Source: Blautia hansenii
GTDB lineage: Bacteria > Bacillota > Clostridia > Lachnospirales > Lachnospiraceae
Reading direction: 5' to 3'
NCBI RefSeq assembly: GCF_013304445.1
Contig: NZ_JAAITA010000001.1
Span: forward strand, 186,001-250,000
Length of the DNA: 64,000 nt
The position numbers and the translations under genes were made by a program. Shown here in pieces: positions 34,534-38,809 of this stretch (its first letter is position 1; each line of letters starts with the position of its first letter). The notes under the pieces were generated by a model. The model was not told the origin of the DNA and did no database searches. It saw only the letters and a program-made list of their open reading frames with translations.

Positions 34534-35313
34534 ATGGAACTTTTTGCAGGTATTATGATTCCTTTTGCAGGTACGGCTTTGGGAGCCGCCTGTGTGTTCT
34601 TTTTAAAGCATGAAATGAAACCTCTGGTGCAGAGAAGTCTTCTGGGCTTTGCGTCCGGGGTTATGGTGGCAGCGGCTGTGTGGTCCCTCTTGATTCCGGC
34701 TATGGATATGTCCGAAGCTATGGGGAAATTTGCCTTTATCCCCGGGGCTGTGGGATTTTTGCTGGGAATTTTGTTTCTCTTGGGGATGGACAAACTGATT
34801 CCTCACTTACACATAGGAGCCAGTCAGCCGGAGGGAAAGAAGAGCAGCCTGAAGAAAACCACCATGCTGGTATTGGCGGTGACTCTGCACAATATCCCCG
34901 AAGGGATGGCTGTAGGTGTGGTTTTTGCCGGTATGCTGGCAGAAAATACAGAAATTACCCTGGCGGGAGCCATGGCTCTGTCCGTGGGAATCGCTATCCA
35001 AAACTTTCCGGAGGGGGCCATTATATCCTTGCCGCTTCGGAGTGAAAAAGGTATGGGCAAGGGGAAAGCATTTCTCTACGGGGCGCTTTCCGGTGCGGTG
35101 GAGCCTTTAGGGGCTTTTCTCACCGTGCTTCTGTTTCGTTTTGTGCAGCCGGTGCTGCCGTATCTGCTGGCTTTTGCCGCAGGCGCCATGATTTATGTGG
35201 TGGTGGAAGAACTGATACCGGAAGCCAGCCAGGGCGAACACAGCAATATCGGAACCATTGGGTTTGCGGCAGGCTTTGTATTGATGATGATATTGGATGT
35301 GGCATTGGGATAA
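34534..35313 (+). CDS. ZIP-family metal transporter
   Basis: The 259-residue membrane protein has about eight membrane segments and carries divalent metals, usually zinc, into the cytoplasm. The ZIP signature helices are clear: HNIPEGMAVGVVFAG near residue 116 and QNFPEGAIISLPL near residue 154, with the metal-binding HN..PEG and N..PEG motifs. AAAGGAGG precedes ATG 34534. It stands as a single gene between two terminators. The metal is inferred from the family. Confidence 0.93.
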   Translation: MELFAGIMIPFAGTALGAACVFFLKHEMKPLVQRSLLGFASGVMVAAAVWSLLIPAMDMSEAMGKFAFIPGAVGFLLGILFLLGMDKLIPHLHIGASQPEGKKSSLKKTTMLVLAVTLHNIPEGMAVGVVFAGMLAENTEITLAGAMALSVGIAIQNFPEGAIISLPLRSEKGMGKGKAFLYGALSGAVEPLGAFLTVLLFRFVQPVLPYLLAFAAGAMIYVVVEELIPEASQGEHSNIGTIGFAAGFVLMMILDVALG

Positions 35314-35368: not shown

Positions 35369-35412
35369 ATGCTACACTGTTTTCGTCAAGATTAATACCC
35401 CACGGGGGTGTA
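35350..35412 (+). promoter_or_regulatory. csoR-copA promoter and CsoR-like operator
   Basis: TTGCTT (35350-35355) and TACACT (35373-35378) are 17 bases apart and partly inside the preceding terminator. A dyad TACCCC-ACG-GGGGTGTA lies at 35396-35412, about ten bases after the expected start. CsoR operators are G/C-tract palindromes flanked by TA, so copper-relieved repression of csoR-copA is inferred. Confidence 0.6.
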
Positions 35413-35425
35413 GGGAGGAAAAGAG

Positions 35426-35686
35426 ATGCAGGCAGATAAAGCGAAGATAAACAGACTTTTAAAAACAGCCAGAGGACAAATAGACGGTATACTCAAGATG
35501 GTGGAGGAAGATCGTTACTGTATGGACATTTCACATCAGCTTATGGCTACAGAAGCCATTTTAAATAAGGCAAACAAGGAGATTCTCACAGCCCATTTAA
35601 AGAGCTGTGTTACCAATGCCAAGACAGACGAGGAGAGGGAGGAAAAGGTAGACGAACTGGTGACGATGTTGGGGAAAATCATGTAG
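35426..35686 (+). CDS. csoR: Copper-sensing repressor CsoR
   Basis: The 86-residue all-helical DUF156 protein senses Cu(I). The Cys-His-Cys ligand set is present: Cys in DRYCMDIS near residue 32, and His and Cys in AHLKSCV near residues 57 and 61. RLLKTARGQIDGILKMV at the start is the typical first helix. AGGGAGG lies seven bases before the ATG. The gene is directly upstream of copA and has a matching operator, so the metal call is firmer than for an isolated member. Confidence 0.94.
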   Translation: MQADKAKINRLLKTARGQIDGILKMVEEDRYCMDISHQLMATEAILNKANKEILTAHLKSCVTNAKTDEEREEKVDELVTMLGKIM

Positions 35687-35701: not shown

Positions 35702-38245
35702 ATGAAGGGAAAATTTGATGTGACAGGCATGACCTGCTCGGCCTGCTCTTCCAGGGTGGAAAAGTGCGTCCGCAAGCTGGAAGGGGTGAAAGAGGTCAGT
35801 GTCAATCTTCTGACTAACAGTATGCAGGTGGAATATGACGATGAAATTCTGAAGGAACAGGGAATTATAGAGGCAGTTGTACATGCCGGATACGGTGCGT
35901 CTCCGGCAGCAGGCTCGTCGGAAACAAGAGGAAAGGCACAAAACGCAGAAGTGAAAAGAGCCAATCCCGTCCAGGAACATTTGATGGAGATGAAGAAGAG
36001 AACAATCTGGTCATTTGTATTTCTGATTCCCCTGATGTATGTGTCTATGGGACATATGGCAGGTCTGCCTTTGCCAGTCGTTCTTTCGGGAACGGAAAAT
36101 GCGGTAGCCTTTGCGTTTACGCAGTTTCTGCTGTGTCTGCCTGTATTGTACATGAACCGGGCCTATTTCAGCAAGGGCTTCAGTACACTGCTTCACGGTG
36201 CGCCCAACATGGATACTCTGATTGCAGTGGGCTCCGGTGCATCGCTGATTTATGGAATTTTTGCCATTTACCGCATGGGCTATGGATTGGGAGTACAGAA
36301 TTTTGAACTGGTGAATCAATATCGTCATGATTTGTATTTTGAATCTTCGGTGATGATTCTGGCATTGATTAATATAGGGAAGTATCTGGAAGCACGTTCT
36401 AAGGGGAAGACGGGAGACGCCTTAAAAAAACTGCTGGATTTGGCACCAAAGACAGCGCTTGCAGAGCGCAACGGTGTGGTCACAGAGATTCCGGCACAGG
36501 AGATACTGCCGGGGGATATTCTGCATGTAAAACCGGGAAAAAGTGTGCCGGCGGATGGGGTGATTCTGGAAGGAAGCACCAGTGTAGACGAGGCCGCGAT
36601 TACGGGAGAGAGCATTCCTGTATTTAAAGCAGCAGGCGACCGGGTCATTGCAGCTACCATGAATAAAACCGGATTTTTCAAAATGAAGGCAGACAAAACA
36701 GGGGACGATACGGTATTTTCCCGGATTATCCGGCTGGTGGAGGAGGCCAGCGCCAGCAAGGCTCCTATTGCCAGAATGGCAGATAAGATTGCAGGCATTT
36801 TTGTTCCGGTGGTTATGGGAATTGCACTGGTTACCGTTGCAGTGTGGCTGCTTCTTGGTGCAGGTTTTGAATTTGCGCTTTCCTGCGGCATTGCAGTGCT
36901 GGTGATTTCCTGCCCCTGCGCTTTGGGACTGGCTACACCGGTTGCCATTATGGTAGGCACCGGAAAGGGGGCAGAAAACGGCATATTGATTAAGTCCGGA
37001 GAAGCCCTGGAAGTGGCGCACAACATTCAGAGCGTGGTACTGGACAAGACGGGAACCATTACCCAGGGAAAACCTGTGGTTACGGATATCTATCCGGTGC
37101 ATACAAGCCCGCAAAAGCTGTTGGAAATTGCGGGGGCTTTGGAAATGAAAAGCGAGCACCCTTTGGCAGAAGCCATTCTGGCAAAGGTAAAAGAAGAAAA
37201 TACAGCTTTGCCGGAGACAGAAAATTTTCTGGCAGTAACGGGAAAAGGCGTGCAGGCCGTTATAGAAGGACAAACCTACTATGCAGGGAATAGCAAGCTG
37301 ATGGAAGAGCATCATGTCGACTGCAGGGAAATACAGCCGCTCATGGAAAAACTGGCAGAAGATGGCAAAACACCGCTGATTTTTGCTGATGAAAAGCAGG
37401 TGCTGGGCATTATCGGAGCCGCAGATGTGGTAAAACCAACCAGTGCACAGGCTGTAAAAGAGTTGAAAAAACTGGGGATTCGGGTTATTATGCTTACAGG
37501 GGATAATGCCAGAACGGCAAAGGCCATTCAGAAACAGCTGGAGATTGATAACGTTATTGCAGAGGTACTGCCCCAGGATAAAGAAAGAGAAGTGGCAAAT
37601 ATCCAGAAATCCGGACAGGTGGTGGCAATGGTAGGAGACGGCATCAACGATGCGCCTGCCCTTGCCAGAGCAGATGTGGGCATTGCCATTGGCGCAGGAA
37701 CAGACGTAGCCATTGAGAGTGCAGATATTGTGCTGATGAAAAATGATTTGCTGGATGTGGTGACGGCCATCCGTCTGAGTAAGGCCGTTATCCGCAATAT
37801 TAAGCAGAATCTGTTTTGGGCCTTTTTCTATAATACCTGCGGAATTCCCCTGGCGGCAGGTCTGCTCTATCCCATGTTTGGATTAAAATTAAGCCCCATG
37901 TTTGGAGCGGCAGCCATGAGTCTCAGCAGTCTGTTTGTTGTATCCAATGCCCTGAGGCTGCGGTATTTCCAGGCTTTGAAAGCGCCGCAGAGAATAGAAG
38001 AAAATGCCGCACAGGCGGTTGAAGATAAGGAGGAAAAAATGATGTATAAGATGAAAATTGAAGGAATGATGTGTCAGCACTGCCAGGCAGCAGTGACCAA
38101 GGCTTTAAATGCACTGGAAGGCGTAAAGGCAGAGGTGAATCTGGAGAAAAAAGAGGCTTATGTGGAAGCAGAAGCTCATGTAACAAAAGAAGAATTGACA
38201 AAAGCAGTGGAAGAGGCAGGTTACGAAGTAATTTCTGTGGAATAA
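35702..38245 (+). CDS. copA: Copper-exporting P1B-type ATPase with C-terminal CopZ-like domain
   Basis: The 847-residue ATPase pumps Cu(I) out of the cell. In order: an N-terminal heavy-metal-associated domain with MTCSACSSRVEKC near residue 10; eight membrane helices, with the transport site CPCALGLATP near residue 402; the phosphorylation motif DKTGTITQGKP near residue 447; SEHPLAEAI near residue 482; MVGDGINDAPALARADVG near residue 642; and finally a second metal-binding domain (residues 780-847) with MMCQHCQAAV. ATG 35702 fits the ribosome binding site better than GTG 35696. The terminal domain is unusual; CopZ is normally a separate gene. An internal AAGGAGG and ATG lie at the junction. 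Confidence 0.95.
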   Translation: MKGKFDVTGMTCSACSSRVEKCVRKLEGVKEVSVNLLTNSMQVEYDDEILKEQGIIEAVVHAGYGASPAAGSSETRGKAQNAEVKRANPVQEHLMEMKKRTIWSFVFLIPLMYVSMGHMAGLPLPVVLSGTENAVAFAFTQFLLCLPVLYMNRAYFSKGFSTLLHGAPNMDTLIAVGSGASLIYGIFAIYRMGYGLGVQNFELVNQYRHDLYFESSVMILALINIGKYLEARSKGKTGDALKKLLDLAPKTALAERNGVVTEIPAQEILPGDILHVKPGKSVPADGVILEGSTSVDEAAITGESIPVFKAAGDRVIAATMNKTGFFKMKADKTGDDTVFSRIIRLVEEASASKAPIARMADKIAGIFVPVVMGIALVTVAVWLLLGAGFEFALSCGIAVLVISCPCALGLATPVAIMVGTGKGAENGILIKSGEALEVAHNIQSVVLDKTGTITQGKPVVTDIYPVHTSPQKLLEIAGALEMKSEHPLAEAILAKVKEENTALPETENFLAVTGKGVQAVIEGQTYYAGNSKLMEEHHVDCREIQPLMEKLAEDGKTPLIFADEKQVLGIIGAADVVKPTSAQAVKELKKLGIRVIMLTGDNARTAKAIQKQLEIDNVIAEVLPQDKEREVANIQKSGQVVAMVGDGINDAPALARADVGIAIGAGTDVAIESADIVLMKNDLLDVVTAIRLSKAVIRNIKQNLFWAFFYNTCGIPLAAGLLYPMFGLKLSPMFGAAAMSLSSLFVVSNALRLRYFQALKAPQRIEENAAQAVEDKEEKMMYKMKIEGMMCQHCQAAVTKALNALEGVKAEVNLEKKEAYVEAEAHVTKEELTKAVEEAGYEVISVE
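38039..38245 (+). CDS. Possible internal start giving free CopZ-like copper chaperone
   Basis: Within copA and in its frame, AAGGAGG (38027-38033) lies five bases before ATG 38039, followed by a second ATG. Translation from here would give a 68-residue heavy-metal-associated protein (YKMKIEGMMCQHCQAAV at its start, AVEEAGYEV near its end), the size and fold of CopZ. The layout suggests a former copZ gene that lost the copA stop codon but kept its own initiation signals. Whether the free peptide is made is inference. Confidence 0.5.
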   Translation: MMYKMKIEGMMCQHCQAAVTKALNALEGVKAEVNLEKKEAYVEAEAHVTKEELTKAVEEAGYEVISVE

Positions 38246-38272: not shown

Positions 38273-38809
38273 ATGATTCGAGTAGGAATGGGATATGATG
38301 TTCATAAACTTACTGAGGGCAGAGACCTGATTCTGGGCGGAGTGAACATTCCATGGGAAAAGGGACTTCTGGGACACTCTGACGCAGATGTGGTGGTACA
38401 TGCCATTATGGACGCCCTGTTGGGAGCTGCGGCCCTTCGTGATATCGGAAGGCATTTTCCGGATACAGACCCTCAGTATAAAGGGATTTCCAGCATCAAA
38501 CTTTTACAGTATGTAGGCAAACTGCTGGAAGAAAATATGTATGTGATTAATAATATTGACGCCACAATTATAGCGCAGAAACCCAAGCTTCTGCCCTATA
38601 TAGACACTATGATTGCCAATGTGGCTCAGGCGCTGCATATCAGCGAAAATCAGGTGAATATCAAAGCAACTACGGAGGAGGGGCTGGGCTTTACGGGAAG
38701 CCAGGAAGGGATATCCGCCCAGGCTGTCTGCGCTCTGACTCATGTGCAGGATTTGATGGGAGATGACAGAATACAAGGAGGCTGCGGCAGATGCTGCGGC
38801 AGGGAGTAA
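38273..38809 (+). CDS. ispF: 2-C-methyl-D-erythritol 2,4-cyclodiphosphate synthase
   Basis: The 178-residue enzyme closes the cyclodiphosphate ring in the MEP isoprenoid pathway. Zinc and catalytic motifs are [17 protein letters not shown] near residue 7 and [20 protein letters not shown] near residue 38, with HFPDTDP near residue 61 and [10 protein letters not shown] near residue 133. The usual length is near 157; here about 18 extra residues end in a Gly/Cys-rich tail ([10 protein letters not shown]) encoded by a short GCTGCGGCAG repeat. The ABC-F gene follows six bases later. ispD is not nearby. Confidence 0.95.

Follow-up and report, generated by a model that had tools for sequence, protein, structure and literature searches.

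The window (the whole 64,000-nucleotide stretch of DNA that was analysed) comes from Blautia, a member of the Lachnospiraceae. A csoR-like gene at 35426..35686 (+ strand) encodes a metal-sensing repressor (PF02583, E 7.4e-26) and is likely the first gene of an operon with copA. On its 5' side, at 35395..35411 and with no strand assigned, the sequence reads ATACCCCACGGGGGTGT, which may represent a CsoR operator. The copA gene (35702..38245, + strand) translates without an internal stop into a Cu+-ATPase of 847 amino acids that is fused to CopZ. The translation matches PF00122 and PF00702, and has two stretches that match PF00403, the HMA domain: one is N-terminal (residues 5-64, 35714..35893, + strand, by Pfam profile match) and one is C-terminal. 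CopA has the features of a P1B Cu+-ATPase, namely the E1-E2 ATPase and hydrolase domains, the N-terminal HMA domain, and the CPC and DKTGT motifs. It is predicted to transport Cu+, and the neighbouring CsoR-type repressor gene agrees with this.

A ZIP family metal transporter gene (PF02535) lies at 34534-35313, just 5' of csoR-copA, forming a small metal cluster. On the other side, 27 nt 3' of copA, is an ORF at 38273-38809 that is presumably ispF-like. The region contains eight terminator-like matches, against 3.0 expected in shuffles; three are on the + strand, and none of these three lies 3' of copA. Because the terminator scan of the region found no + strand site between copA and the ispF-like gene, the latter may share the copA transcript.

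The last 68 codons of copA encode a full HMA domain (PF00403, E 6.1e-15, residues 5-63 of 68). This domain carries GMMCQHC, which fits the GMxCxxC pattern of CopZ/Atx1-like chaperones, and the 22 PDB matches to it include the CopZ chains 6ff2, 1k0v and 2qif. At the border of the domain, the sequence in the copA frame is GAT AAG GAG GAA AAA ATG ATG TAT AAG. It comprises a Shine-Dalgarno (SD) sequence AAGGAGG (38027..38033, + strand), which is conserved in relatives; the spacer AAAAA (38034-38038); and two in-frame ATG codons (38039..38041 and 38042..38044, + strand). The original prediction had described both a complete HMA domain with MMCQHC in the last 68 codons and, at its border, AAGGAGG, five bases and ATG ATG in the copA frame; the domain, the sequence and the coordinates all proved correct.

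The SD pairing energy is -10.8 kcal/mol at both ATGs, which is the best value among the 30 internal ATGs of the window's copA; copA's own start is weaker, at -8.5. In the relatives described below, an energy of -10 is attained by 88/220 ATGs at the domain border compared to 47 of 5648 other internal ATGs. On these two comparisons, we conclude that the signal in the window is not chance. In the predicted local fold the SD is 88% unpaired, the pair of ATGs 60%, and the stretch as a whole 64%.

The two ATGs differ in their conservation. The position at 38042 is ATG in all 16 Blautia rows of an alignment, from which four Blautia genomes fell outside, while at 38039 only the window's gene (L005) and its closest relative (L006) have ATG. 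ATG 38042 stands 8 nt after GGAGG. Its conservation, together with this spacing, makes it the likelier CopZ start, so that the likely product is a free CopZ-like chaperone of 67 amino acids (38042..38245, + strand, including the stop codon), identified as such by PF00403 and its PDB relatives; 38039 is a possible second start.

We then compared the locus with relatives from several samples. The genus sample comprised 20 genomes; 142 of the 150 genomes in the family sample had a match, as had 273 of the 293 in the class sample. The family and class samples were queried with the ATPase part alone, so that fusions would not be favoured, and at most one match per genome was fetched, giving 139 family and 80 class loci; a further 160 stretches were fetched and added to the relatives' loci. 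The named-genome sample consisted of the best 80 of 589 loci; here, and in a phylum sample, the query included the copZ domain, which favours fused genes. Altogether 333 loci were classified, some of them the same gene: 239 are fused, 53 have an HMA ORF downstream, 33 are without one, four are cut off and four have no ATPase match. Removal of 11 identical copies from the 239 left 228 distinct fused genes. Removal of cut-off, low-scoring, short and identical ATPase cores gave a set of 309 for the tree. HMA matches more than 260 nt behind copA or below 50 bits count as adjacent in the locus classification and as other in the tree set.

The original prediction took CopZ to be normally separate from copA. 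This holds less well here: fused loci make up 101 of the 139 in the family sample, so the fusion is common in that sample rather than odd, and 36 of the 80 in the class sample. Counted by distinct ATPase cores, 97/134 in the family are fused, 92 of them with an internal start, and 36/78 in the class, all 36 with a start. The genus-search rows are all fused with a start (18/18), as are most of the named rows among the best 80 of 589 (77/79 fused, 75 with a start). The phylum sample gave 30 loci, 29 of them new; 24/29 are fused and 24/24 were scored as having a start, under a query that favours fusions and with some genomes recurring from the earlier samples. One of these genes (L339) was scored on a weaker ATG and seems to use GTG. 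Fused copA genes with an internal start were also seen in contigs labelled Erysipelotrichaceae (L043), Acholeplasmataceae (L074) and Spirochaetaceae (L096), which may represent transfer or mislabelled bins.

An in-frame ATG is found 7-18 codons before the CxxC in 220/228 distinct fused genes, and in 172 of these it is exactly 11 codons before. When copZ is a separate gene close behind copA, its ATG is also 11 codons before CxxC in 16/20 printed junctions; the internal ATG therefore sits where the copZ gene begins. The SD energy at the border ATGs has a median of -8.1 kcal/mol; it is -4 or below in 217/220 and -6 or below in 192/220, although both counts take whichever ATG in the interval scores best and are thereby made to look stronger, unlike a test at a fixed position. 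Among other internal ATGs of the same genes, 791/5648 (14%) reach -6. SD-like five-mers, of three overlapping kinds, number 402 at -20 to -11 in the 220 genes, compared to 2 to 15 in the other upstream ten-base bins; downstream, inside the HMA domain, bins contain up to 50. In rows that have GGAGG, it ends 8 nt before the ATG in 73/94. Counted at the last HMA domain, a start is present in 221/228 fused genes with distinct ATPase cores. The alignment of relatives that the original prediction had called for therefore shows SD-ATG and domain to be conserved together in most cases.

The SD could alternatively have a role in the timing of folding, by slowing the ribosome and giving the pump time to fold ahead of the last domain, with the methionine being structural. 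The position of the SD-like stretch exactly at the domain border would suit such a role. Pausing needs no ATG at a set distance. ATG and SD, however, come and go as a pair: with the SD scored at one set position irrespective of the ATG, 212 genes have both, 10 have neither, and the mixed classes have three each (Fisher p 9e-13, a value that overstates because the rows are related and it is uncorrected for relatedness, and that serves as a guide only). A second N-terminal HMA domain has the same kind of border with no need for a free protein; here, an ATG occurs in only 5/31 cases, and an ATG with an SD of -4 or below in 1/31. Moreover, in the four genes with tandem C-terminal HMA domains (L144, L258, L260 and L287), only the border of the last domain has an ATG with an SD (-8.0 to -10.9). 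We consider pausing very improbable. At the first N-terminal HMA domain, which marks the real gene start, an ATG with an SD of -6 or below is found in 212/290 rows, some of which are cut off there; the internal start is therefore marked about as clearly as that of the gene itself.

Codon usage provides evidence on whether the nucleotides or the protein are selected. Of 75 genes with Lys-Glu 5' of the ATG, 55 use AAG GAG for it, against 16.7 expected from codon use in the same genes; of 36 with Gly, 35 use GGA, against 9.7 expected. The SD core lies in codon frames 2, 0 and 1 in 149, 61 and 4 of 220 genes respectively, with none found in six. As the motif shifts between codon frames, the residues under it vary, and include KEE, KED, KG, GG, QEE, EGE, KGE and others. 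When codons were redrawn with the protein kept, the mean SD energy was -5.7, as against -8.7 observed. For single genes, p was below 0.5 in 191/220 but below 0.05 in only 20/220, since the amino acids themselves allow an SD; the force of the synonymous test is therefore in the aggregate. These data show the architecture, its conservation, and selection acting on the nucleotide motif. What is found at the domain border is what characterises an in-frame internal start, that is, an SD and a start codon conserved under selection.

These results bear on an alternative in which the SD and ATG, left over from a recent fusion or present by chance, give rise to no translation. Such a reading can point to the seven fused genes that exist without a start and to the 33% of other internal ATGs that reach an SD of -4. 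Relics would be expected to decay, yet even in Blautia the linkers vary in length and sequence while SD and ATG are kept in 16/16 rows; the start is retained in nearly all fused genes (221/228), and the synonymous bias in both AAG GAG (55/75) and GGA (35/36) is not what an untranslated remnant predicts. We regard this reading as improbable, and prefer a selected internal start.

The exceptions are few. Fused genes with no ATG near the first C-terminal HMA domain number 8/228, and half of these are the tandem genes described above, in which the last domain has the start. Of the rest, L221 and L239 have a separate HMA ORF 30 and 66 nt 3' of copA, and L245 and L268 have neither a second C-terminal HMA domain nor a downstream HMA ORF. 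In L039, L040 and L147 the ATG is present and the SD is weak. L239 and L268 have a fair SD (-9.5 and -5.7) without an ATG. The case that had been named as refuting the original prediction, a fused domain without the start, does therefore occur, but in 7/228 genes. A separate HMA ORF adjoins copA in two of these seven; the five with neither a start nor an HMA ORF directly downstream are L039, L040, L147, L245 and L268.

A further HMA ORF within 200 nt of a fused copA was seen at six loci (L158, L180, L209, L221, L239 and L246). Since four of the six have the start, a downstream HMA ORF is not special to start-less genes. Similarly, a stand-alone CopZ was looked for in 18 genomes, nine of which lack the start at the first C-terminal domain; the intact ones, too, contain small HMA ORFs. 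In one of the Blautia genomes outside the alignment (G001; L016, L026), copA is broken in two places and a 74-codon copZ reading frame is intact. We considered this as a natural split of copA from copZ and rejected it, because the two breaks may be sequence error; the genome was left out of the evidence.

Two further explanations concern the mRNA. The free chaperone could come mostly from a separate short transcript, made from an internal promoter or by cleavage of the mRNA, and be translated from the same SD and ATG. A promoter-like match whose end is at 38005 lies just 5' of the SD; however, the region has four promoter-like matches where shuffles give 3.5, and a short transcript would still require the internal start. 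We consider it highly improbable as the main source. A variation on E. coli copA is also conceivable, in which the SD and a run of six A cause a frameshift or slippage and CopA ends short of the chaperone. GGAGG in the window is indeed followed by six A, and frameshifting does occur in E. coli copA (PMC5009743). A run of A6 or longer near the ATG is present in only 16/220 relatives, and a conserved slippery site of the E. coli type was dropped on this ground (only runs of A6 or longer were scored); we give slippage almost no probability.

Initiation at the internal start is the reading that we retain: one copA mRNA very probably gives both CopA with a tethered chaperone and a free CopZ. Ribosomes initiating at 35702 would make CopA with the CopZ-like domain tethered C-terminally, while other ribosomes would be recruited by the internal AAGGAGG to initiate at 38042, and perhaps at 38039 too, producing a free CopZ of approximately 7 kDa. 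The original prediction of a pump and a free CopZ from an internal start is thus supported by comparative evidence, in that the start is conserved and selected; one correction concerns the position, the conserved start in Blautia being 38042 rather than 38039. From the internal start only, we infer that CopZ would act as a free protein passing Cu(I) to CopA. The model would require that ribosomes initiate there in cells, that the free product is stable and delivers Cu(I) to CopA, and that the cell benefits from having both forms.

The genome of the window has four HMA matches, which are the two domains of CopA and two other proteins. One of these (1339-1698 of locus L002) is a 119-residue HMA protein with an N-terminal hydrophobic stretch, next to a gene that we presume to be feoB-like; the other (L004) is a divergent HMA protein of 80 residues. 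As the first is apparently membrane-anchored and the second divergent, the genome has no other obvious free soluble CopZ. In other genomes of the genus, too, ORFs of some 120-180 codons repeatedly match HMA.

The gene probably goes back to a copA followed by a copZ; the stop separating them would have been lost, and the ribosome-binding site and start of copZ kept by selection. A FastTree tree of the 309 ATPase cores implies no fewer than 17 changes of the fused state. The tree is unrooted and 120 of its 306 inner branches are weakly supported, and gains are therefore not separable from losses; repeated exchange between the fused and separate copZ layouts is likely.

In the open-licence PMC papers searched, we found no description of an internal start in copA, though one may have been published elsewhere. 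If our proposal is true, it would provide a second natural route, beside frameshifting, from one copA gene to a pump and a chaperone; a simple system for asking why cells want one metal-binding domain both tethered and free; and an example of a small protein missed by gene callers that report one ORF.

Several known systems are comparable in part. The CopA of Archaeoglobus fulgidus also reportedly has a C-terminal metal-binding domain (cited in PMC7558416). Meydan in 2017 and Drees in 2017 are said to have described programmed -1 frameshifting in E. coli copA, which reportedly gives CopA(Z) (both cited in PMC7558416). There, as proposed here, a single copA gene would encode the pump and also supply a small copper chaperone in free form, about 70 residues long. 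In E. coli, the 70-residue product comes from the 5' part of the gene by frameshifting (PMC5009743), in contrast to the C-terminal domain and in-frame internal start described here; internal initiation, a different route, is the one that we favour for Blautia. Another parallel is SctQ (YscQ) of type III secretion, in which an internal translation start gives a free C-terminal part, SctQ-C, that matters beside the full-length protein (PMC4295842); SctQ, however, is a structural subunit of another machine and not a metal chaperone.

Listeria has a csoR-copA-copZ operon, which has the same three parts in identical order but with copZ as a separate gene (PMC4938975). The same paper, a metagenomic study, reported that CopZ is absent from the CsoR regulons of gut Firmicutes (PMC4938975). 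The missing CopZ may be explained by a hidden start within a fused copA: as 92/134 distinct genes of the family sample have a chaperone domain with its own start inside copA, annotation may have overlooked it. We think it rather more probable than otherwise that copZ-copA fusions retaining the copZ start have been gained or have reverted more than once within Bacillota, as a selected system of tethered and free chaperone that would be convergent in output with frameshifting in E. coli copA, and a hidden source of CopZ in gut Firmicutes.
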